Source of the DNA: a virus
DNA length: 32,818 nucleotides
IMG/VR virus record: IMGVR_UViG_3300017989_000290
Coordinates: 1 to 32,818 of that record
Reading direction: 5' to 3' (one strand)
Part shown: in pieces, positions 1 through 32,818 of the stretch
How the letters are laid out: every line of letters begins with the position of its first letter
How positions within the stretch are numbered: the first letter of the stretch is position 1
The notes under the pieces: model-generated
Seen by the model: the letters and a program-made list of their open reading frames with translations, nothing else
What the model was told of the DNA's origin: nothing
The model's database searches: none
Program-made: the position numbers and the translations under genes

Positions 1-3000
1 AGCATAACCCTCTACCCCATGATCACCCCAGCCATAAGCAACTGCGGCCCAGTTAGTATATCCTTCCACGTCATCGACAAGGTTTGAAACGAGAGCCAAG
101 TCTGCCAAAGTAGAGTAGTCATTGGTGCCGTGGTCTCCCCAGTCATATGCCGTCTTCGCCCAGTTGGTATATCCCTCAACCGCAGCAACCTGGCTCGAGA
201 CAACGTTCAGAGAAGCGTTTGTAACATATCCATTGGTTCCATGATCTCCCCATCCATAGGCTGTGGCGGCATAGTTCGTGTATCCCTCAAGTGTGTCGAC
301 AAGGTTCGAGACGAGAGCCAATGCGGCAAGGGTCGCGTAATCGTTGGTGCTATGATCCCCCCACAGGTATGCTGCGGCCGCTCTATTTGTGTATCCCTGT
401 AATGCAGTGATATCTGTAGCGGATCCGTAGCCATTCGTACTGTGGTCTCCCCACCCGTAGGCTGTCGCCACCCTGGACGTGTAGCCCTGCAACGTCACCA
501 CGAGATTGGACACGACGTTAAGGGATGCATTTGTCGTATAGGTATTCGTTCCGTGATCCCCCCAACCATAGGCGGTTGCCACTCGAGTCGTGTATCCCTC
601 CAAGACTACGACCTGATTCGAGAGCACGTCGAGTCTTGTCACGGCAACGTAGTTGCTGATATCGGCCCAATGAAACGTTGTCCCGTCAGACGAAAGCAGG
701 AAGCGCAGTTGCGAATGCGTGTTCGTGACACGCAGTCCACTCGCAGGCAGGTTTGTGCCGTTGGCAAGGTTGCCGTAGTAGTCCCCGTAATGCGTCCCGT
801 GATAGGTGCCTCCCGTCGCTACAGCACTACCCTGGAACTCAAGATCACCGTAGACAAGCATGTGCTTGTACTGCATGCTCACGCCTGACTTGTACATGCT
901 AAGAAATGGCGTGTCGACGCCGAGCGAGACATACCCGGACCCGCCACCAGTCGCAGACCTCACCATCTGCGTGATGCTCCCGAAGCCAGAACTACCGAGC
1001 CCGACTTTGATGTTGATATTGCCTGTCTTTTCATCTGCCGGCACTGTCAGATTGATATCGCCTGATCGTCCGATAGCCCCACCGCTTCCGCTCTCAACGT
1101 TCATATCGCCGCCCCAGTCGCCGGACCCGGTATCGGTTGTATGCCCGCCACGTATCGTCGTTGCCTTACCATCTCCGCTTGATACGTCATGTCCATGGAT
1201 GGATACTGCGTCAGCGGCCTCGAATTCTGTGCCAAAGTTCGTCAGGGATCCGCCTACGGCATCGATTCCACCGGCAACAGTGAGCTTGTTCGTTATCGTG
1301 ACAGCCCCAACATTGACGGATTCTGCATTGGTCAAGGCCTGTCCGCCGAAGTTGGCGGTAGCGCCAAGCGCCCCGCTGAACTGAAACGATCCTTTCACGT
1401 CCAGCATAGAGGACGGCGTTTCTCCGGCCGCACCGTTGATTACAACGCCATTTGACGAAACGACAATCCAGTCATTCGTCCCGGCTCGCACGATGCTCTG
1501 TCCTGCCGTCTGTGCCGCCTTGAGCACTGCGTCACCCCTGGTCCCGCTGTTTGTGCCTGACACCCCGTACAGGCCGAAGAATGGCCCATTTGTGCCCGTT
1601 GACGGTCCGACGTGCATCAATAGCTCGTTTGTAGTGCTCTGGCCGTACCACTCGATGTCGCCAGACGCCACGATGTCGCCGGCGTATGTCATGCCGCCTG
1701 TGATGGCTGCGCCGCTCTGCACGGCCAGGCCCCCGGTCAGCAATACCGGCACCGCCGTCGTGGATCCCTCAGAGCATACGTCATTCAGCGAAAAGGCGTT
1801 TGTCTGCACATATGATGCGATGTTGGTCCCGTCAATGTAGATTTCGTCACTTACGTACAGCCGATGTACTGACGCGTCGCCGGACAGCACTTCCTTGACC
1901 GTGACATCATCGATATAGACACTATCAGACGACGGGGTAACGCGCATCATGAGTCCTGCGGTCGTTTTCACTGGAAAAACAGCCGAGAAATAGCCGGATG
2001 CACCGCTTGACCACGTATTGGTCACGCCGCCCATGGTAATGATGATCGTCTCGCTTGAGTCAGATGTCGTGCGCTTCGCCTCTACCTTGTACAGCTTGTT
2101 TCGGACCACGTCTACAGCGTTGCTAGGCGTTATGGTGGATAGCTGGCCAATAGGGCAATAGATCTGATTCGCGCTATACGTGGCGTTCGTCAGATTCCAT
2201 CCGGCCTCGGACCCTGTAAACGTCCCATTGACTGTCAGATTCGTGCTGACATTGCCGGAATTCCCAACAACGATCTCAGAGAAAGTGTTCGATCCTGTCG
2301 TTAGGTATCCAGCATCAGCATGGTCGCCCCATGCGTATGCGGTGTTTCCGTTGTCCGCCTTCGTGGTGATCGTGTTAGACACGGCCGCCCAGTACGGATC
2401 GGACTCACCGTCCCAGGCTACTGAGTCCATCAGGTTCGAGAACGTCATGAAGAACGAAATGTCCGCATTGGTAAAGATCGCCCCGCCGAGATTAAGCACC
2501 CCATTTGTCGATATTGACCACAACGTGGATCCTGTCTTCATGTTGGTCAGCTTCATCTTACCGCTGTCGCTGCCGTCGACATACCATCGCCAGTGTTCCC
2601 CGTGGACAACGAGGTCAAGACCGGCGTCATTTGCCGCATTATTGGTTGTCTGCACACGGACGTACGCGCTGCCGTTTGTGTCCGCAACATGGAGTTCCAC
2701 TACCGGCGCCATGCCAACACCAATATTGCTCTTTGCAAATAGCTTGTCGGCTACCACTTCCCCGTCATAGGCAACAGTGCCTGTGCTCGTATCTGTGACA
2801 AGCGTACAATCTCTCAAGCGCAGCGTTCCGGCACTATTTACCACATCGGAAGATCCACCCTCAAAAATGCAATTTTCCGCGTATAGATAGGCGTCACCGT
2901 TGCTTGCCAATGCGCCATCGGTTGTCCCGTAGACAGTGCAGTTATACATGTGCAGCGTGTTGTCATTCGACGCGCTGTTATCATAGGACCTAACGCCATA

Positions 3001-4449
3001 CGTGTTTGCCCCCGCCTGTGCGTCTATTCGCGTCCCAAAGCAGTACAAATGCGTCGCCGCTTCTGCCGTGCTCTGATTCTCATGAATCACACCGTACGCA
3101 GCCGTACTCCCAGTAACCTTCACCTTGCAGTCGCGAATCTCTCCGCTTGCGTCCAAAAAGCGCATGCCAGTTTGGGCGCCAAGATGCGTATTGTGCAGTA
3201 CATCAACGTTTTCAATTATTACGCCAGTCAGGACAGTGCCGGCCGACCCGTCAACAAGTATTCCGGTCCCACCGCTCGAGGTGATATCAAGCGTTATGTT
3301 CCTTACGGTGCATGTGCTAGCCGTGATGTGGATGTAGTTCTTGGAGTCAGTTATTGACATGATCTTGGTCAGGCCCTTGCCTGCGCCGATCAGAGAAATG
3401 CTCTCCGTGATGTCGATGTCGTCTGTGATCGTGTATGTCCCGGCCGCCAGCATGAGGCAATCACCGGCTTCAGCCGCAGCCACTACTGTTTCAATATCGT
3501 TCGTCAGCGCCACGTATACGACATTCGCCGGCGCGATTTCCAAAACGGAAAGCGGCCCGTTGGTGCCGATGCCAACGCTTCCGCCTGTGTCAATGTAGAT
3601 ACCCTCTGCGGCGTCCTGGTCGGCGTGTATGTGCAGCGTTGTGCCATCCCCGTAATACCCAGAAGCGTTTGTAGCCGGAAAGGTGCCGTGATTCAGGTTG
3701 CTTGTCATAGCCCGGGACCCATCGATCTTTAGAAACGTGAGATCTTCGGCCTCGTATGTCGATACGATGTTGTTGCTTTGGTTGTTGAGTAGCGTGTCAA
3801 TCTGATTCGTGCTGTAGCTGCTTCCGGCGTAGTTCGTCTTGAAACTGACGGCCAGATTGTTATTTGTCCAATGCACAAAGTTCGTCGTTCCTTCCGTGAA
3901 GGTTGCAAACTGTAGATCATTGGTCCCCCATGGCAGCGTTCCGGTCGATGTAATCGTGTCCCAGTTGACGGTTGAGGTCATGGCGTTCGTTGAATGTGTT
4001 CCGCCAAGCGGGTTCTTGTCGATGATCGTCCGCCCATCTTTCCACGTGTATTGTTTCCCTGTGCTACGGATGCATATGACCTGCGAAAACAGACTTCCGC
4101 GTATTGCCGTGTCACCTGCCGTTAGCGGGAAGTCAACGTAGTTCGTCGCCGTGGATACGGTCCCTGTCGCGACAAACAGACTGACGCTTTCCTCTTCATT
4201 CGTGCCGATGCCGAACTTCCAAGTGTCATTTGTTGACGGAAACCAATCATCACCGTCATTGAACAGGTACGCGCGAACGATAGGCGTATCGTACTGATGC
4301 GTCGGGACTTCAAACGGATCGTCTTGGGACTGGATATCCAGGCGAATGTTGATCGTCGGATCATCGGACGCGGTGGCTGCGTTGCATCGAATCGCGCACA
4401 GTCCAAGCAGTGCTGCAAGTAGTAGTGTCAGTCTGGCTGTCTTCATCAT
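1..4449 (-). CDS. Large secreted-type phage tail fibre / adhesin, 3' end outside window
   Basis: An open frame of 1483 codons with no stop before the left edge, so the C-terminus is missing. Two consecutive ATGs (4449 and 4446) begin it. The N-terminus (MMKTARLTLLLAALLGLCA, then IRCNA) is a signal peptide, which is odd for a virion protein. Around residue 286 comes a fibre motif (GSVGIGTNG). Residues about 300-560 look like a right-handed beta-helix (pectate-lyase-like LMLAAGTYTITDDIDI followed by many short strands). A YAWGDH repeat lies near residue 705, and six YxWGDH repeats fill the last ~200 visible residues. Such repeats are common in phage tail fibres and host adhesins. It is the last gene of the tail module, so host binding is likely. 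The target is unknown. Confidence 0.8.
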   Translation of the reverse strand, partial: MMKTARLTLLLAALLGLCAIRCNAATASDDPTINIRLDIQSQDDPFEVPTHQYDTPIVRAYLFNDGDDWFPSTNDTWKFGIGTNEEESVSLFVATGTVSTATNYVDFPLTAGDTAIRGSLFSQVICIRSTGKQYTWKDGRTIIDKNPLGGTHSTNAMTSTVNWDTITSTGTLPWGTNDLQFATFTEGTTNFVHWTNNNLAVSFKTNYAGSSYSTNQIDTLLNNQSNNIVSTYEAEDLTFLKIDGSRAMTSNLNHGTFPATNASGYYGDGTTLHIHADQDAAEGIYIDTGGSVGIGTNGPLSVLEIAPANVVYVALTNDIETVVAAAEAGDCLMLAAGTYTITDDIDITESISLIGAGKGLTKIMSITDSKNYIHITASTCTVRNITLDITSSGGTGILVDGSAGTVLTGVIIENVDVLHNTHLGAQTGMRFLDASGEIRDCKVKVTGSTAAYGVIHENQSTAEAATHLYCFGTRIDAQAGANTYGVRSYDNSASNDNTLHMYNCTVYGTTDGALASNGDAYLYAENCIFEGGSSDVVNSAGTLRLRDCTLVTDTSTGTVAYDGEVVADKLFAKSNIGVGMAPVVELHVADTNGSAYVRVQTTNNAANDAGLDLVVHGEHWRWYVDGSDSGKMKLTNMKTGSTLWSISTNGVLNLGGAIFTNADISFFMTFSNLMDSVAWDGESDPYWAAVSNTITTKADNGNTAYAWGDHADAGYLTTGSNTFSEIVVGNSGNVSTNLTVNGTFTGSEAGWNLTNATYSANQIYCPIGQLSTITPSNAVDVVRNKLYKVEAKRTTSDSSETIIITMGGVTNTWSSGASGYFSAVFPVKTTAGLMMRVTPSSDSVYIDDVTVKEVLSGDASVHRLYVSDEIYIDGTNIASYVQTNAFSLNDVCSEGSTTAVPVLLTGGLAVQSGAAITGGMTYAGDIVASGDIEWYGQSTTNELLMHVGPSTGTNGPFFGLYGVSGTNSGTRGDAVLKAAQTAGQSIVRAGTNDWIVVSSNGVVINGAAGETPSSMLDVKGSFQFSGALGATANFGGQALTNAESVNVGAVTITNKLTVAGGIDAVGGSLTNFGTEFEAADAVSIHGHDVSSGDGKATTIRGGHTTDTGSGDWGGDMNVESGSGGAIGRSGDINLTVPADEKTGNINIKVGLGSSGFGSITQMVRSATGGGSGYVSLGVDTPFLSMYKSGVSMQYKHMLVYGDLEFQGSAVATGGTYHGTHYGDYYGNLANGTNLPASGLRVTNTHSQLRFLLSSDGTTFHWADISNYVAVTRLDVLSNQVVVLEGYTTRVATAYGWGDHGTNTYTTNASLNVVSNLVVTLQGYTSRVATAYGWGDHSTNGYGSATDITALQGYTNRAAAAYLWGDHSTNDYATLAALALVSNLVDTLEGYTNYAATAYGWGDHGTNGYVTNASLNVVSSQVAAVEGYTNWAKTAYDWGDHGTNDYSTLADLALVSNLVDDVEGYTNWAAVAYGWGDHGVEGYA
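13..580 (-). repeat. Six tandem YxWGDH(G/S)TNxY protein repeats
   Basis: Within the fibre gene, six units encode variants of AYGWGDHGTNGY followed by a helix-like LxxVSNLVxTLEGYT segment. They sit near positions 20, 132, 241, 350, 440 and 554, mostly at 90-114 base spacing. The DNA copies diverge at third positions, so the repeat is maintained as protein rather than as a recent DNA duplication. A seventh, isolated copy lies near 2320. The series continues past the left edge. Confidence 0.85.
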
Positions 4450-4458
4450 ACCCCCGCT

Positions 4459-5928
4459 TTATACGTAGGCGAATACCCATTCAAATGTTGTCCAGAATTC
4501 CGCCTTGATCTGGTATCCATACCAGTCTATTTCAGAAAGTGCCGGTTCTGAACTCCCTTCCGGCACGCCCGAATCAAAGTACGGATCCACAGCCCCGCCG
4601 GCCTGGTCCCAAGTCACGCTGCGGCTTGCTGCCGTCTGCCATGATGTATCGGCCGCCACACGGGCGAGCAGTCCAGCAGCAGATACGCCAAGCTCCGAAT
4701 TCACGTCTCGATAGTTCATTGTCGCACCATCGATCGAGTCAGGCGTTTCTGATATAAAATAACACGCAGCCTTATGCAAGTAGCTGTTGTTTAATCCCTG
4801 AACGATTGCTTCTCCGTATGCAAGAGTCGATAGCGCAAAATACACATAATAATTCTCCGGCGATTGTCCGTGGAAGAATACCGCAGCCACATGCCGAGCC
4901 ACATAATCCTCAGTGATAGATGCCGAGACAGGGTTGTCGTCGACGCACTCAGCGTCATCATGGTCGTGAGAATCCCACAGCGTCGAACTCTTTGTCCCAG
5001 CCGATCCATTCCATTGCCTGCGGTACTCGGACGAATGATTGTATGTGTCCCACATTTCGAGCGAAGGCGTCTCATGCGTAGTTTCGGCGCTCCCCCCAAG
5101 TTGGCTGTCAACATGCTTTGCTGTGTACCGCAGAAAACTCATTGCGTCTTGTAGATCCTCTATGAGCCACGGACCTATAATGTCGCCTGCCTGGCAATAG
5201 CCATAACTCCAACCGCTCGCCGGGTATCCAGACATCGTCGTACGGCGACGCGGATAATTCTGCCCGTTCGTGACGTTCTGCCAAACATCTGACGCAGTCG
5301 CATAAGTCGGAATGCTACCATCCGATGAACCGTCATAGTTTGGCATACTCGTTGGAGGACTGCCGTAGCTGCCAAGGTCCATCCAATAATGCTTGCGAGA
5401 AACACTTTCTGATATGAGATCTTCGATTAGTTCCTGCTTTTCGCAGAAATAAGCAGCGGCCTGAATGTCATCTCCAGGGACAGTCGCCACAGCACTCAGC
5501 GTCGAGTAATTCTGTCCGTATGTTAAAAAGCCTTCGACTGCACCCGTACTCGTGTTCACCAGGTTTCCGTCTGCATCAGCTCGCCAGTATCGCCACGGAT
5601 AATAGCCATATGCGAATGTTCTAAATACGGGACGCCAACCATGCTCATTCCGAAGTGGGGCATGCGGGAATACTCCGCCCAAATGCACTTGATTCCCTGT
5701 AATCGTTCCAAATGGTGCATTTTGTATTGACAGCCATGAAGATCCATTCCACCAATAAGAATACGAACACGTCAAGGTCGTATTCTGCACCCACTGAGTT
5801 GAATCTATGCGCCACTCAGCTATGCCACCAATAATGTCAAAACGCTCCTCGAGAGCATTCTCAAGTTCTTGGTAATACGTTACGTCCTGCATGTCGCTCG
5901 CACTTGTTATTGGGGTAAAGCTTGCCAT
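4459..5928 (-). CDS. Distal tail / virion protein of unknown function
   Basis: 489 residues. The frame is open further upstream, but the ATG at 5928 overlaps the stop of the preceding gene by one base (TGATG), the usual junction here, so MASFTPITS is the preferred start. The protein is rich in Trp, Tyr, Ser and Asn, without a signal peptide or membrane segment. It has acidic His-rich stretches (DSHDHDDAE) and many aromatic pairs. I recognise no family. Its place between tail-fibre-type genes, 9 bases before the large fibre, suggests a tail-tip, baseplate or fibre-connecting role. That is inference from position. Confidence 0.7.
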   Translation of the reverse strand: MASFTPITSASDMQDVTYYQELENALEERFDIIGGIAEWRIDSTQWVQNTTLTCSYSYWWNGSSWLSIQNAPFGTITGNQVHLGGVFPHAPLRNEHGWRPVFRTFAYGYYPWRYWRADADGNLVNTSTGAVEGFLTYGQNYSTLSAVATVPGDDIQAAAYFCEKQELIEDLISESVSRKHYWMDLGSYGSPPTSMPNYDGSSDGSIPTYATASDVWQNVTNGQNYPRRRTTMSGYPASGWSYGYCQAGDIIGPWLIEDLQDAMSFLRYTAKHVDSQLGGSAETTHETPSLEMWDTYNHSSEYRRQWNGSAGTKSSTLWDSHDHDDAECVDDNPVSASITEDYVARHVAAVFFHGQSPENYYVYFALSTLAYGEAIVQGLNNSYLHKAACYFISETPDSIDGATMNYRDVNSELGVSAAGLLARVAADTSWQTAASRSVTWDQAGGAVDPYFDSGVPEGSSEPALSEIDWYGYQIKAEFWTTFEWVFAYV

Positions 5929-22699: not shown

Positions 22700-23418
22700 C
22701 TGTCGGCCCTCTCTTCCATTGGATTCCGGCGGCGCCCACGGAAAAACACCGCATGGCCCCGCTCCTCAAGCAGTCGTTCCATACCCGAAAACGTGATGTA
22801 GCAGTCCCCATGATCGCCCCAATCGCGACCCCAGGAGTTCCGAATCAGGAACCACTTTTTCGACAGGGATACCCCGCGACACAAAAAGCAGTGCCGCCCC
22901 GTCACATCGCCCGTAACCTTCACAAACCCAGAACGATCCGGGCGATTCATGCCCGAATACCATTGCGTGGCCATGACCGCCGGTCCTTCGTAAGCTATTC
23001 CCATTATAAGGTCTTGCAACCCAAACGCCCAATGATATGACTCAAACCAGCCGAGGCGTTGCGCGAACTTCACCCCGGCAAGCATGCTTGTGCCTTCGTA
23101 CTGTGGGTCAGCGCCAGGGTATGATCCGCCGGGCCATTTGTCCGATGCTTGTGCACCCCAGTATATTACGGTCTTCGCGTACTGCCCGTTAATACCAGGA
23201 ACTTCAACGGGTTTAGCTATGAGTTCGTGGGCGATGGCGTATCCGACACAGGCCCCCTCTTTCCCTTGGTCAAGCCATCGCCGGCAGGGCCAGCGCCTGG
23301 ACTTCCGCGGCTTGTCTGAGAGCCAATCCCGGATTCCGAATTCGCGGCTTCGCCCGTCTTCCTCGAATATCAGGTCAAGGCGTGGGTCTGATGTCTCTGA
23401 ACCGTCGCGTAGTTTCAT
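22696..23418 (-). CDS. Papain-like (C1 family) cysteine peptidase
   Basis: 240 residues from MKLRDGSETS (ATGA overlap). The papain-fold signature is nearly complete: Gln 51 in WLDQG, catalytic Cys 57 in GACVGYA, His 176 in GRHCFLC, Asn 194 in RNSWGRDWGDHG. There is no signal peptide or propeptide, so it would act inside the host cell, as a phage-encoded protease against host or phage proteins or as a modifying enzyme with that fold. Papain-like proteins are uncommon in phage accessory regions. The substrate is unknown. Confidence 0.8.
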   Translation of the reverse strand: MKLRDGSETSDPRLDLIFEEDGRSREFGIRDWLSDKPRKSRRWPCRRWLDQGKEGACVGYAIAHELIAKPVEVPGINGQYAKTVIYWGAQASDKWPGGSYPGADPQYEGTSMLAGVKFAQRLGWFESYHWAFGLQDLIMGIAYEGPAVMATQWYSGMNRPDRSGFVKVTGDVTGRHCFLCRGVSLSKKWFLIRNSWGRDWGDHGDCYITFSGMERLLEERGHAVFFRGRRRNPMEERADR

Positions 23419-24143
23419 TTTGTGCCTTTCCCGAATTTGGCAAGATCCTTTTTGATGAGATGCGGACGGTCGCAAAGCAGACTTTCAACGTCTGATAGAA
23501 ACGCTTCCCAATCAACTCGGCTTTCAATGTTCGGATCGTGATTCATTTTGCCGACCTTCCAAAAATCAACAAATGGAAGAAGCTCTTCGATTACGCGGAG
23601 CGCTTGGTCTGGATAGATTACAGGCTCAACGCTAACCCATGTTTTGATGCCACGCTTATGAGCTTCCATTACAGCCGCTTTTCGGTCTGATAATGGTGCC
23701 GCGTTTGGCTCCCATTCATCAGCGTCTTTCTGGCTGGTTAGCAGTATCGTTGTCGCAAATTTCCACCCGTGAGCCGCTACAATGTCGAAATCCCGACACG
23801 CTAAAGTACCGCCTTTCGTTAGGATCTGCACGCGTAGGTCGTTGGCTGCGAGAATCTCTAGCGCCTCTCTCGTTAGATTATTTTCGAGCCCGAATTGATA
23901 TGGGTCGCACATGAAACAACAAAGGATTTCTCTTTCATCCCCTTGTAATTCGATCGCGTCCGCCCGAAGCTTTTTCAGAAGGTCCTTTCTCGGTTCGGCG
24001 TTGGCATGATACTGCTCTGGTGTCATCCTGCGTATGGGAGGGCAGTAACAATACTTGCAACCGTGTACGCAGCCCGTGTAAAGGTTCAATGCAAGTTCTG
24101 AGTATTCTCTTGCCTTTCCGCGGGGTTCGTATACGACTCTCAT
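23415..24143 (-). CDS. Radical SAM protein, spore-photoproduct-lyase-like group (copy 1)
   Basis: 242 residues. The [4Fe-4S] motif CxxxCxxC is at 25, 29 and 32 (YTGCVHGCKYCYCP). Later motifs fit the family: CCFMCDPYQ, VQILTKGGTLACRDFDI, KFATTILLTS, KTWVSVEPVI, VDFWKVGKMN. Such proteins cleave S-adenosylmethionine to make a radical, usually for nucleic acid or small-molecule modification. It is clearly paralogous to 27411-28208. The ATG overlaps the previous stop. The substrate cannot be read from the sequence; DNA repair or modification is the natural guess. Confidence 0.85.
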   Translation of the reverse strand: MRVVYEPRGKAREYSELALNLYTGCVHGCKYCYCPPIRRMTPEQYHANAEPRKDLLKKLRADAIELQGDEREILCCFMCDPYQFGLENNLTREALEILAANDLRVQILTKGGTLACRDFDIVAAHGWKFATTILLTSQKDADEWEPNAAPLSDRKAAVMEAHKRGIKTWVSVEPVIYPDQALRVIEELLPFVDFWKVGKMNHDPNIESRVDWEAFLSDVESLLCDRPHLIKKDLAKFGKGTK

Positions 24144-27410: not shown

Positions 27411-28208
27411 CTATGCGTTTATGAGATCCTGCTTGATAAGATGTGGGCGACCCGCAAGTGCTTCCGAAACCTCCTTTCTGAACTTCGGCCAGTCGATTTC
27501 CCTCTCGATATCCTTCGTCTCCGCGTCCCGGCCGTTCAGCTTCCCGACCTTCCAAAAATCAACATATCCGTCAAGGCATTCGATCAACGTCAACGCTTGG
27601 TCCGGCTCAACCACCGGTTCGAGGCTAACCCATGTGTAAATACCACGCATCCTGGCTGTCATGATTGCCTTGATTCTGTCTGTTATGCTGGCTGCAAACG
27701 GCTCCCAGTACTCCCGATGCCCGTCGTCGGAAAAGCAGAGAGTCGTTCCGAACTTCCATCCACGGTCCTGGTTCCTAGCCATTATATCGAAATCTCGCTC
27801 CGCGCGCGTGCCACCCTTTGTGAGTATGTGAATCGTAATCCCGCATTCCTCTGCCACGATAAGGGCGTCTCTGGTTAGATCGTCGATGTGGTCGCCATAC
27901 GCTTGGTATGGGTCACAAGTGAATGACATGGTTACCGGTCGCCGGTCGCCGGCTGACTGCATCTTCCGGCAGTCACGACGGAACATGTCGAGGGCGCCGT
28001 CTCTCGGCAATGCTATTCTGTGAAATCGCGTTCGCCTTTCCCTGTACGATCCACCAGAGGTACGCCAGAAGGTTGTTGCCGGCACGTAGCAATATCGACA
28101 TCCGTGTCCGCATCCAGAATAGACGTTGACGGCGAGTCCGTCCCCGATCCCTTGGTCTGTTTCGGCATATTCCATTGCACGTCCGCTGGGCGCATAGATA
28201 ATCTCCAT
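27411..28208 (-). CDS. Radical SAM protein, spore-photoproduct-lyase-like group (copy 2)
   Basis: 265 residues, with AGGAG eight bases before the ATG. CxxxCxxC lies at 33, 37 and 40 (YSGCGHGCRYCYVP). The same ordered motifs as the 23415-24143 protein occur: FTCDPYQ, IHILTKGGTRAERDFDI, KFGTTLCFS, YTWVSLEPVV, VDFWKVGKLN, then RPHLIKQDL. The two copies are paralogues with different inserts. The start lies 196 bases inside the upstream frame, but the conserved N-terminus (IIYAPSGRAMEY) shows that it is right. Confidence 0.87.
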   Translation of the reverse strand: MEIIYAPSGRAMEYAETDQGIGDGLAVNVYSGCGHGCRYCYVPATTFWRTSGGSYRERRTRFHRIALPRDGALDMFRRDCRKMQSAGDRRPVTMSFTCDPYQAYGDHIDDLTRDALIVAEECGITIHILTKGGTRAERDFDIMARNQDRGWKFGTTLCFSDDGHREYWEPFAASITDRIKAIMTARMRGIYTWVSLEPVVEPDQALTLIECLDGYVDFWKVGKLNGRDAETKDIEREIDWPKFRKEVSEALAGRPHLIKQDLINA

Positions 28209-28456
28209 GGTCTGACTCCTTTCTTAATGACACAGTCTTTGAAAATGGCTCTTTGCGCCAATACATGTACAGGATTGTGCTTCGACTGTCCAACGAAAGC
28301 GAATAGCCAGACTGGCGCGCCGAACAGGATGGCCAGTTTCTCACGCATAGATGGCCGCCATCGTGAAACGCATACGTTTCCCTTTGTCACAGCGATAGGG
28401 ATCTTGTCGCCAACAGATAAATAGCATGTCGCCTCTTTGAAATAAGTCGGTTTCAT
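28013..28456 (-). CDS. Small phage protein, probably with a read-through tail
   Basis: 147 residues. The first ~82 residues (RWRPSMREKLAILFGAPVWLF, HNPVHVLAQRAIF) resemble a short conserved phage protein with a W-x-PSMxEKLAxLFGAPVWL core. The remaining ~65 residues run 196 bases into the radical SAM gene in another frame and look like unselected sequence (SMRPADVQWNMPKQTKGSGT). The normal stop may have been lost. Function unknown. Confidence 0.6.
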   Translation of the reverse strand: MKPTYFKEATCYLSVGDKIPIAVTKGNVCVSRWRPSMREKLAILFGAPVWLFAFVGQSKHNPVHVLAQRAIFKDCVIKKGVRPWRLSMRPADVQWNMPKQTKGSGTDSPSTSILDADTDVDIATCRQQPSGVPLVDRTGKGERDFTE

Positions 28457-28461
28457 GTCGC

Positions 28462-29088
28462 CTACCTTCCTATTTTTCCCGCCCGGTTCGCAGCGTTGAT
28501 CATAGCCTCTTTGAGTTCGCCATTGATGAATGGGTGCCGCACAAGGATCTGACTACACACGGACATGAACACATCTTCCAGGTACATCGTCGTCTTTTCT
28601 GGGCAGTCATTGCAGATGTAAGGCATATCGAGCACGATCTTTACGCCTGTCTGCCGCTTCTGTCCGCGGTGTTGCGTTTCCGTGATGTTATCAGGCGGAA
28701 GTGATGATGTCCGCTTTTCGTAGTAGTCCGGCACTTTGAACCATTGCCGCTTCTTGCTCGGCGTTAGGTCGGCCATATGCTTGGCGCGTTCTTCGTCAGG
28801 CAGAGTTGCCACCCATCGCGCCCATCTGATTGTGGTATTCGGGCAGTTCCGCAACTTTGCTCTCTGTGCCTTGGTAAACGCCTGCCGGAATCTGTGCGAG
28901 ACTGCGATAAACGACTTCTCAAACACGCCTTTCTTCCGCAGTGCATCGTCCAGTTTTGCCAAACTGCCGTCTGGGTGACGCGTGAAATAGTTTCCGAGCC
29001 AATCACCCATGTCAAGATAGGCTTCAATCAGGCTCTTATTTTTCCGGTCGATGATAGCGATTGCTTGGTCTAGTCCGTCCTTTGGCAT
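28462..29088 (-). CDS. Hypothetical protein (208 aa)
   Basis: Starts MPKDGLDQAIAIIDRKNKSL, with AAAGGAG before the ATG. Helical and charged, with an aromatic patch (TTIRWARWVATLPDEERAKHMADLTPSKKRQWFKVP). A CNDCPEKTT motif near residue 160 may bind metal. No family is recognised with confidence. Its start lies right after the attI-like repeat at 29106, so it marks the left, backbone side of the first cassette region. Confidence 0.65.
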   Translation of the reverse strand: MPKDGLDQAIAIIDRKNKSLIEAYLDMGDWLGNYFTRHPDGSLAKLDDALRKKGVFEKSFIAVSHRFRQAFTKAQRAKLRNCPNTTIRWARWVATLPDEERAKHMADLTPSKKRQWFKVPDYYEKRTSSLPPDNITETQHRGQKRQTGVKIVLDMPYICNDCPEKTTMYLEDVFMSVCSQILVRHPFINGELKEAMINAANRAGKIGR

Positions 29089-29090
29089 GG

Positions 29091-29855
29091 TTACTCCTTT
29101 CTCCGTTGTCTACCTAGTAACAAGTTGGAAACACTCATAGCCTCACACATCGCCCCGCACTCCGGCACGATGATCTTACAGTCTCGCCCCGCTTCTGGGT
29201 CGAGTTCGTCTAGGTAGACTCCGTTGATGCAAGAGCCACCTACCTTGCGCTCTAGTCTCGCACGCGGCCAGAACACTTCATCCGGCCATATTTTCCGAAC
29301 CAAGTTCCAATAGCCCATGCCTCCCTTCAGGCACCCCCGGCAGTTGTTGTTAGGAAACCCAAGGTCATACATGCGCGGCCTGCGGATTCCCGCTTCTCGC
29401 AAGATGCCGTGTGCGTCCGACTTCGTCAGTCCACGATCTTGCAGAGGGAAAACATGCTCATCTTCGCGCATGTTCTCGCGTAGCCTTTCGGATCGCGCAG
29501 ATTCGCCCGCGTCCATTCCCCACACGTAGCGGAATGTGTTAAAGAAACGGTTTTCTGCTTCCCACTCCTTGCGGTCGCGGCGCTTGAGCAACATCGTACA
29601 TGACGCGCCTCGTGGCCCGTTCATGTAGTGCGGGAATTGCAGAACAGCATTTTCAACGCACTTGTACGGGCTTTGCCGAATCTCAATCGGCTTGCCGAAC
29701 CATGTTTCGCAGTCCCGCACAAATCGCATGGTGTCCTCTTCCATGTCGTCGATGTGCTGGTAGATGATCTTGTCAATCTGCTCAATCATCAGCTTGGTCG
29801 CCACGGCGGAAGACACTCCCGCGCTGAACCATGCAACTGTAATCTGTTCAATCAT
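29091..29855 (-). CDS. PAPS-reductase-type (ATP pyrophosphatase fold) protein, cassette-borne
   Basis: 254 residues. The PP-loop FSAGVSSAVAT lies at residues 10-20, with RQSPYKCVENAV and a Cys-rich end (NNNCRGCLKGGMGYW, PECGAMCEAM) that could hold an Fe-S cluster. Such phage proteins adenylate or reduce sulfur-type substrates; relatives include DndC of DNA phosphorothioation and tRNA thiolation enzymes. The gene fills a cassette from 29124 to the attC at 29876-29932, antisense to the attC. Its last ~10 codons read out through the attI-like motif. Confidence 0.75.
   Translation of the reverse strand: MIEQITVAWFSAGVSSAVATKLMIEQIDKIIYQHIDDMEEDTMRFVRDCETWFGKPIEIRQSPYKCVENAVLQFPHYMNGPRGASCTMLLKRRDRKEWEAENRFFNTFRYVWGMDAGESARSERLRENMREDEHVFPLQDRGLTKSDAHGILREAGIRRPRMYDLGFPNNNCRGCLKGGMGYWNLVRKIWPDEVFWPRARLERKVGGSCINGVYLDELDPEAGRDCKIIVPECGAMCEAMSVSNLLLGRQRRKE
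29106..29128 (+). repeat. attI-like 23-base motif, copy 1
   Basis: Contains CCTAGTAACAAGTTGG, ending at the crossover triplet GTT (29124-29126). Two other copies (30708 and 32614) differ at only 1-3 positions in their shared part. There is no palindromic left arm, so it is not an attC. Each copy stands in front of a cassette-like unit and just upstream of a minus-strand gene start. Confidence 0.6.
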
Positions 29856-30177
29856 GCGTCACCCCCGCATCCAGATTTCCAACAATGCCCTTCGAGCGTA
29901 CGGCTTCGCCGCCGCTCAAGGCAGCGTTGGCTGCAAGTACATCGTCGAGGTAATCTGCAAGCCGCTGCATCTCGCACCCGCCAGCGGACACGTCGTCTGT
30001 CGGTGACAGCACGTCGATCAGGTCAAGCGGGTTCCCGTCGTGATCGAGCGTGTATTGGCAACGGTACTTTCGGAGCGCAGCCAACAAAGCCTTGGAGCGC
30101 GACTGGCGAGAAGCCACGATTTTCAGTTTGGCGTTTTCAGCCTCCAATTCCTCGATCAGTTGTCCAACGTCTTTCAT
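29848..30177 (-). CDS. Hypothetical protein with coiled-coil start (109 aa)
   Basis: From MKDVGQLIEELEAENAKLKI; AAAGGAT lies six bases before the ATG. The N-terminus is a coiled coil. The middle is RKYRCQYTLDHDGNPLDLIDVLSPTDDVSAGG. The last ~20 residues (AALSGGEAVRSKGIVGN) come from the attC hairpin. Possibly truncated or extended by cassette insertion. It overlaps the PAPS-type gene start by eight bases. Confidence 0.6.
   Translation of the reverse strand: MKDVGQLIEELEAENAKLKIVASRQSRSKALLAALRKYRCQYTLDHDGNPLDLIDVLSPTDDVSAGGCEMQRLADYLDDVLAANAALSGGEAVRSKGIVGNLDAGVTHD
29876..29932 (+). repeat. attC-like recombination site 1
   Basis: R'' TTTCCAAC (29876-29883), spacer, L box GAGCG/CGCTC with unpaired bases TA in the left arm, terminal stem CGGC/GCCG, spacer, R' GTTGGCT (29926-29932). 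R'' is the exact complement of GTTGGAAA at 29124, the start of the same cassette. The site also encodes the C-terminus of the gene at 29848-30177. Confidence 0.75.
30077..30139 (+). repeat. Degenerate attC-like half site
   Basis: GCAGCCAAC (30077-30085) is the exact 9-base complement of GTTGGCTGC at 29926, the beginning of the next cassette. The following AACAAAGCCTTGGAGCG resembles the left arms of the good attCs. The right arm does not pair well; it could end at GTTTTCA (30133). It may be a decayed attC, or chance within coding sequence. Confidence 0.3.
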
Positions 30178-30370: not shown

Positions 30371-30430
30371 CTCAACAACCCCCGGCAGGCGAGCCCCACG
30401 CGGGGCTATTCGCCTTAGTTCTGGTTGGAA
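30371..30430. repeat. Strong hairpin, possible old attC
   Basis: AGGCGA+GCCCC (30387-30397) pairs with GGGGC, then a 3-base bulge TAT, then TCGCCT (30402-30415). AAC (30374) and GTT (30424) lie 10 and 8 bases outside the stem. This has attC proportions, but R boxes do not match a cassette start, and the bulge is on the opposite arm. It directly follows the stop of 30415-30708. No T-run, so not a terminator. The only further open frame here lacks a start codon. Confidence 0.45.
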
Positions 30431-30708: not shown

Positions 30709-30730
30709 TGTCTATCTAGTGACGAGTTGG
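30708..30730 (+). repeat. attI-like 23-base motif, copy 2
   Basis: Contains TCTAGTGACGAGTTGG, with crossover GTT at 30726-30728. It is followed by the first cassette of the four-cassette array. The cassette's first bases GTTGGGGC are complemented exactly at 31011-31018. Confidence 0.6.
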
Positions 30731-31010: not shown

Positions 31011-31071
31011 GCCCCAACCAAGACATTCAGCGTATGCGGACAAGCCGCAACGCTGATGTCAGTCGTTGGGC
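31011..31071 (+). repeat. attC site of cassette 1
   Basis: R'' GCCCCAAC (31011-31018), 9-base spacer, CAGCGT, extra A, TGCGG, loop ACAAG, CCGCA, ACGCTG, 9-base spacer, R' GTTGGGC (31065-31071). Stem complete; R'' exactly complements GTTGGGGC at 30726. Confidence 0.85.
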
Positions 31072-31244: not shown

Positions 31245-31261
31245 TGCTGTCCTTTCTGGAC

Positions 31262-31320
31262 GCCCAACAAGGCGTCCGACGGGACGGCTTACAGCCGCCC
31301 GTCAACTTGTTCGTTGAAAC
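31262..31320 (+). repeat. attC site of cassette 2
   Basis: R'' CGCCCAAC (31261-31268) complements GTTGGGCG at 31065. Left arm GACGGG, extra A, CGGCT; loop TAC; right arm AGCCG, CCCGTC. Both spacers are nine bases; R' GTTGAAAC ends at 31320. Confidence 0.87.
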
Positions 31321-31627: not shown

Positions 31628-31686
31628 GTTTCAACAAAACGTCCGAGCGTATGCGCTAAGGCGCAACGCTCAACTCATCGTTCGAC
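31628..31686 (+). repeat. attC site of cassette 3
   Basis: R'' GTTTCAAC (31628-31635) exactly complements GTTGAAAC at 31313. Left arm GAGCGT, extra A, TGCGC; loop TAAG; right arm GCGCA, ACGCTC. R' GTTCGAC (31680-31686). Confidence 0.87.
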
Positions 31687-31881: not shown

Positions 31882-31893
31882 TGTTGACCTCCA

Positions 31894-31950
31894 GTCGAAC
31901 AAGGCGTCCGAGGCGACGCTTGACAGCGCGCCTCAACTTGATCGTTAGTC
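31894..31950 (+). repeat. attC site of cassette 4
   Basis: R'' AGTCGAAC (31893-31900) exactly complements GTTCGACT at 31680. Left arm GAGGCG, extra A, CGCT; loop TGAC; right arm AGCG, CGCCTC. R' GTTAGTC (31944-31950). No matching GACTAAC is seen further right, so the array probably ends here. Confidence 0.85.
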
Positions 31951-32602: not shown

Positions 32603-32818
32603 GGGTTGTCCTTTTGTATATCTAGTAACGAGTTGGACCTCGGGGCCACACTCCACAGGTGCGCCATGATCTGGTCGGCTATCTCATTCGCCTCGGCGTG
32701 CGTCAGTTTGCCGTCCGCGCCGTCGAAGATCGGCATGGCTATGTTCGCCTGCCATGCGTCAGCATACCCGCAGTCATTCTGCAAGGCGTCCTGCATCGTG
32801 CGGTACGCCCTCGCAACG
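32599..32818 (-). CDS. Small phage protein, 5' end outside window
   Basis: The frame is open to the right edge (ARAYRT before MQDALQNDCGYADAWQANIA), so the gene probably starts outside. The WQANIAMPIFDGADGKLTHAEANEIADQIM core matches a common short phage protein with a Trp-x-x-Asn-Ile-Ala helix pair. The last ten residues (SLLDIQKDNP) are encoded by the attI-like motif, as in the PAPS-type gene. Confidence 0.65.
   Translation of the reverse strand, partial: VARAYRTMQDALQNDCGYADAWQANIAMPIFDGADGKLTHAEANEIADQIMAHLWSVAPRSNSLLDIQKDNP
32614..32636 (+). repeat. attI-like 23-base motif, copy 3
   Basis: Contains ATCTAGTAACGAGTTGG, with GTT at 32632-32634. By the rule seen in the other arrays, the following unit should close with GGTCCAAC and an attC to the right, outside this window. 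Confidence 0.55.

Follow-up and report, generated by a model that had tools for sequence, protein, structure and literature searches.

A putative integron-type gene cassette carrying a PAPS-reductase-like gene in a phage genome fragment

Positions 29125 to 29926 of the viral DNA analyzed here (a stretch of 32,818 nucleotides, referred to below as the window) probably form a gene cassette of the integron type, which carries a phrog_424 PP-loop enzyme as its cargo and was inserted where a phage gene ends, at an attI-like docking site (motif A). Judging from the sequence, we assign this reading a probability of about 0.85. It builds on the geometry of an attC site, complementary borders, a left-end motif that is repeated in the window, the polarity of the sites, and the recurrence of the arrangement in other phages. 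If the attI-like sites are real, phages would offer fixed landing places for cassettes, and integrase-driven gene exchange between phages would become directly testable.

Borders and attC site of the candidate cassette

The sequence-only reading had described a separate unit that starts with GTTGGAAA at 29124 and closes with TTTCCAAC and a palindrome at 29876-29932, and each of these elements was found in its place (Table 1). The unit has R'' and R' boxes, paired arms, extrahelical bases in one arm, and a start complementary to its own R'' box. In the left arm of the attC site, termed attC B, the extrahelical c and a lie 6 bp apart, which is the canonical attC signature, and they are the same bases as those of aadA7 and of the attC sites in the main array of the window. 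DNA folding of attC B gave -16.3 kcal/mol (z = -3.0); because the site lies inside coding sequence, coding constraint may account for some of the palindrome. Beyond GTT/AAC, GTTGGAAA is complementary to its own attC over 5 nt and to the other four attC sites over at most 2 nt. The GC profile of the cassette is no different from that of its surroundings.

Table 1. Coordinates of the genes, attC sites, and motifs discussed in the text
Feature	Position	Strand	Description
PAPS-reductase-like gene (P0001)	29091..29855	-	254 aa; antiparallel to attC, with attC at its 5' end
Upstream ORF (P0002)	29848..30177	-	Start at 30177; 3' end supplied by attC B plus the edge of the cassette
Downstream gene (P0003)	28462..29088	-	Ribosome-binding site and start just past motif A
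Candidate PAPS-like gene cassette	29125..29926	+	802 bp; begins at the G/TT cut in the left border and runs through the G in the R' box of attC B
Left border, GTTGGAAA	29124..29131	+	5 nt past GTT complement R'' of its own attC only
attC B	29876..29932	+	R'' TTTCCAAC at 29876-29883; R' GTTGGCTGC at 29926
attC 1, main array	31011..31071	+	Score 13
attC 2, main array	31261..31319	+	Score 12
attC 3, main array	31628..31686	+	Score 12
attC 4, main array	31893..31950	+	Score 12; last of the array
Motif A, TCTACCTAGTAACAAGTTGG	29109..29128	+	20 bp; putative attI-like element at the left end of the PAPS cassette
Motif D, TCTATCTAGTGACGAGTTGG	30711..30730	+	Proposed attI-like start of the main array
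Motif E, TATATCTAGTAACGAGTTGG	32617..32636	+	Proposed third attI-like copy

Sites were scored with a purpose-written scanner that looks for AAC, a spacer, 3 bp, an unpaired base, 6 bp, a second unpaired base, and 4 bp, with the corresponding right arm preceding GTT. The sequence that served as a yardstick, which we take to be the aadA7 attC, scores 13/13, and two attC sites of phage TJE1 score 13 and 11. The scanner is strict: it detects few sites in M16-3 and H101 and none that convinces in P12002L, so its misses carry little meaning. Five sites of the window score at least 12/13, namely attC B (12/13) and the four sites of the main array, all of them on the plus strand and within 2.1 kb. Shuffled windows yielded 0.05 sites per window with a score of at least 11.5, and no site with a score of at least 12 occurred in 436 kb of other viral DNA. 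When an attC was required to pair with its own complementary left border, all five window sites passed, and 300 shuffles produced no such pair. Correct pairs are complementary over 5, 6, 5, 6, and 5 nt, all others over at most 3 nt. The same complement rule thus governs attC B and the main array, as the sequence-only reading had claimed, and its proposal of a separate cassette unit is supported by the attC geometry, this rule, and the left-end motif common to both arrays. An Rfam search for attC matched no such family, and attC-family pattern scans of viral and genome collections gave nothing useful.

These results bear on the simplest alternative, namely that a chance inverted repeat lies among ordinary operonic phage genes and that there is no cassette at all. 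The borders are indeed inside open reading frames, the genes are tightly packed, and 9-nt complements occur without a full attC, as with GCAGCCAAC at 30077-30085, which is complementary to GTTGGCTGC at 29926. Yet this explanation is extremely improbable given the shuffle tests of attC score and border complementarity, the viral background described above, and the same gene in the same layout in other phages.

Two other places in the window resemble parts of an attC. At 30077-30100, inside P0002, GCAGCCAAC is followed by a left attC-like arm, which may be a decayed site or a chance occurrence; we rejected 30077-30085 as a further cassette end because it is a left half-site with no right arm. 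A GC-rich hairpin between two genes (about 30375-30430) has AAC and GTT at its flanks; it was discarded as an attC because the scanner does not recognize it.

Left-end motif, gene frame, and polarity

The PAPS cassette and the main array each start at a copy of a 20-bp motif that is present three times in the window (motifs A, D, and E) against a chance expectation of 0. The end of the motif coincides with the cut point between G and TT (G/TT) in both arrays, and each of motifs A and D complements its own attC. Read directly from the sequence, the differences between the copies fall mostly at second codon positions; a coding explanation of the motif was therefore set aside, since conservation at the DNA level is more likely. 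Motifs A, D, and E may represent attI-like docking sites, and none was found beside an intI gene. Motif E lies 180 nt before the contig end and is followed by GTTGGACC; it could mark either an unoccupied site or the beginning of a third array, truncated by the contig end. A scan of IMG/VR for the left-end motif returned 27 stretches, but none of those fetched held an attC with a score of at least 12, and we take these matches as chance.

A minus-strand start codon (29088, 30708, and 32602, respectively) also follows each copy of the motif at a distance of no more than about 40 nt, as would be the case for a promoter or another regulatory element of the next minus-strand gene, with the cassettes inserted nearby by a different route. 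We consider this unlikely, given that the motif ends at the cut of both arrays and complements their attC sites, although a double role is possible.

A somewhat stronger competitor, though still an improbable one, holds that a cassette block from a bacterial array entered the phage by ordinary mosaicism and is now an inert relic, which no integrase moves within the phage. No match to the integrase family PF00589 was found in the window record, which is linear and possibly a fragment, and off-target or illegitimate recombination has been suggested for some phage arrays (Qi et al., PMC9892861). However, within 1.6 kb two arrays each begin at a copy of one motif, and a third copy exists, which suggests site-specific insertion at separate sites. 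Moreover, of the four cargoes in the main array, at least three can be assigned to phage-library families (crAss001_48, DUF551, and QSregVF_b), and all of the main-array cargo genes run with the phage operon. The other recognized phage genes in the window are likewise on the minus strand. Elsewhere in the window, we observed two phrog_13321 family proteins (23415-24143 and 27411-28208), the second of which is a radical SAM protein weakly similar to DNA repair photolyase, and a repeat of about 55-82 nt that occurs six times, mostly at intervals of 111 nt, in a tail-fibre-like or similar gene (9-624).

The cargo of the candidate cassette is larger than those of the main array (254 aa versus 61-97 aa in its four cassettes), in line with the initial description. 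Three features go beyond that description, namely the antiparallel polarity, the repeated attI-like motif, and a reading frame that overruns the left border. The frame reaches this border at about codon 242 of 254, and its stop codon (29091) lies about 30 nt outside the cassette; every invariant residue of the protein lies at or before position 238 and is therefore inside the cassette. When 29125-29926 is excised in silico, the upstream gene stays in frame and ends with AANLLLGRQRRKE and a stop codon, and the next start codon follows 2 nt on. The predicted empty site would give P0002 the C terminus AAN/LLLGRQRRKE, followed by a stop, and would have GCAGCCAACTTGTTACTAGG as its junction sequence. 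No relative with an empty site was found; P0002 and P0003 are without relatives in the collections searched, and the capsid relatives, looked for with the same aim, included none that is close. Conserved DNA continuing across 29124 and 29926, which would contradict the proposed borders, was not encountered, an outcome explained entirely by the lack of any DNA-level relative in the collections searched.

Cassette genes typically run toward their attC, but this polarity is not a defining feature, and reversed cassettes are known. In aadA7, TJE1, and M16-3, on the strand where gene and attC point in one direction, the unpaired bases lie in the left arm. The unpaired bases of the window sites are on the plus strand and the cassette genes all lie on the minus strand (5/5), so the cassettes are antiparallel to their attC sites. 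This assignment relies on a proteobacterial attC (aadA7) and two known phage records, with no cognate integrase at hand; the integrase of these phages might use the other strand, in which case the polarity would be canonical for it and the genes would only look antiparallel. We regard this as quite improbable, since the attI-like motif is on the side predicted by canonical polarity and the TJE1 and M16-3 sites, when run through this scanner, have the orientation of their genes. With an attI-like motif on the left, only antiparallel cassettes would be expressed as part of the phage operon; thus, selection for expression would be a simple explanation for the reversed polarity.

If the antiparallel cassette reading is correct, a host-supplied integron integrase could act in trans, fold the bottom strand of the attC, and recombine it into the G/TT of the docking site. 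As the gene is antiparallel to its attC, such an insertion would align it with the phage operon, where it would use its own leader and borrow its stop codon from phage sequence past the border. A more far-reaching version of this model is a cassette-exchange platform of the phages' own, evolved by some of them, in which several intercistronic attI-like docks, oriented such that the phage operon reads antiparallel cassettes only and served by a host integrase in trans, would allow anti-defence and DNA-modification genes, including that for the PAPS-like enzyme, to be traded between unrelated phages. We put this forward tentatively, as a possibility that is less probable than not.

The PAPS-reductase-like gene beside attC sites in other phages

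The suggestion that the borders of this gene in other genomes be compared with the proposed cut points was followed up in phages, where borders enclose the gene in P8625 and in an IMG/VR contig (L077). P8625 (NC_029047) is an isolated lytic Verrucomicrobia phage that infects Puniceicoccales strain IMCC8625. Its minus strand carries three attC sites with complementary boxes (27956, 28269, and 29276; cluster 27956-29335). The attC sites at 28269-28342 and 29276-29335 enclose gene 45 (the PAPS-like homologue) together with gene 46, both of which are on the plus strand and antiparallel to the sites. Gene 45 resembles the window gene in its sequence (42% identity), its location between attC sites, its antiparallel orientation, and the lack of an integrase. 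In contrast, the P8625 cassette also includes gene 46, its attC sequences differ, and its array starts without a recognized motif A, D, or E. The P8625 genome paper makes no mention of an integron, attC, or cassette, and P8625 is not named in the main text of the phage-integron survey (PMC9892861). As an isolated phage, it may serve as a bench model for testing such gene exchange.

An alignment-based scan of IMG/VR for the PAPS-like gene identified 80 loci. In L077, the homologue is enclosed by an attC (3868-3953) on one side and, at about 4756, by a complementary border of 12 nt on the other, as part of an antiparallel array (2351-4757) in which at least three scanner-positive attC sites precede the PAPS-like gene. 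The left end of this array has a hairpin and then a T run, which looks like an intrinsic terminator. In the nearest homologue (L067, also from an IMG/VR contig; 71% identity), an attC with a score of 13 ends beside the start codon, and a matching right border was not found. No integrase-family gene was found in P8625 or in the L067 and L077 contigs. Among 96 relatives, an attC with a score of at least 12 lies directly upstream of the gene in three, all of them antisense; the other sites in this upstream zone score 10.5-11, near the expected background, and most relatives have no attC. A further contig (L069) has, about 1.2 kb upstream of its PAPS-like gene, an antisense attC-like site with a score of 12 (2687-2813), whose complementary partner of 6 nt lies at 3154.

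Overall, the gene is flanked by attC in four phages, with both borders present in three (the window, P8625, and L077) and the same reversed polarity. In a first tree, the window gene is separated from that of P8625, which corresponds to two changes. A second tree gives four changes for the four attC-flanked genes, of which at least three are forced by well-supported branches. Repeated gain of attC flanking is the simplest reading of these trees, although repeated loss would also be possible. As the gene is attC-flanked in four phages and belongs to a gene family that is mostly without attC, its distribution suggests repeated capture, and phages seem to pick up useful genes, such as that for the PAPS-like enzyme, by an integron route.

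The cargo enzyme and known phage attC clusters

That the cargo has a PP-loop fold, as initially proposed, agrees with profile and structure searches. The protein matches phrog_424 over most of its length (residues 3-238; E value, 1.7e-33), PptA (PDB 21fy) over residues 8-239 (6.4e-41), and the PADLOC SspD profile (E value, 8.8e-9). Foldseek matches of the predicted model (pLDDT 72) are the PP-loop folds LarE, MnmA, and TtuA. The Pfam profile PF01507 is below its cut-off for the window protein and above it for the L077 and P8625 proteins. Cysteines 86, 172, 175, and 233 are invariant across 11 homologues, and those at 49 and 237 are nearly so. The cargo is therefore likely a PAPS-reductase-like sulfur-transfer enzyme of the PP-loop type acting on DNA or RNA. 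It would probably activate sulfur transfer onto these substrates, for example, protecting phage DNA.

PptA belongs to the same family by sequence, and the sequence of its PDB entry matches a protein of Vibrio phage VH-5 over the part compared by eye; the VH-5 protein is about 38% identical to the cargo. No attC with a score of at least 11 lies near the VH-5 gene, and a literature search on PptA found no relevant paper. SspD and DndC, the ATP-pyrophosphatase subunits of DNA phosphorothioation systems, have a PP-loop PAPS-reductase-like domain and conserved cysteines in common with the cargo. The cargo differs from them in its length of 254 aa and in its neighbors: no ssp or dnd partner gene (nickase, cysteine desulfurase, or others) was recognized beside it among the subset of open reading frames scanned against PHROGs and Pfam. 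Plasmid relatives of the cargo gene exist; according to a 2024 paper, PAPS-reductase homologues occur in many mobile elements, and those of phages deserve further study (PMC11437467).

With at least two attC sites close together and no integron integrase found in the record, the window corresponds to a CALIN. It differs from a complete integron (intI, attI, and Pc) in having no integrase and an attI-like motif that is putative. Phage CALINs are already known but rare, with 17 in 10,705 genomes (Qi et al. 2023, PMC9892861), and the activity of phage-borne attC sites with IntI1, including those of TJE1, has been demonstrated experimentally (PMC9892861). These known clusters share with the window attC-bounded cassettes, the lack of an integrase, the complement rule, the G/TT cut, and a probable DNA-modification cargo. 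The cargoes reported for them include methyltransferases; that of the window is a PAPS-reductase-like enzyme. Unlike them, the window has its attC sites opposite to all of its cassette genes, and a repeated attI-like motif starts two of its arrays. Relative to the known phage attC clusters, the new elements are these attI-like repeats and the array-wide inverted polarity.
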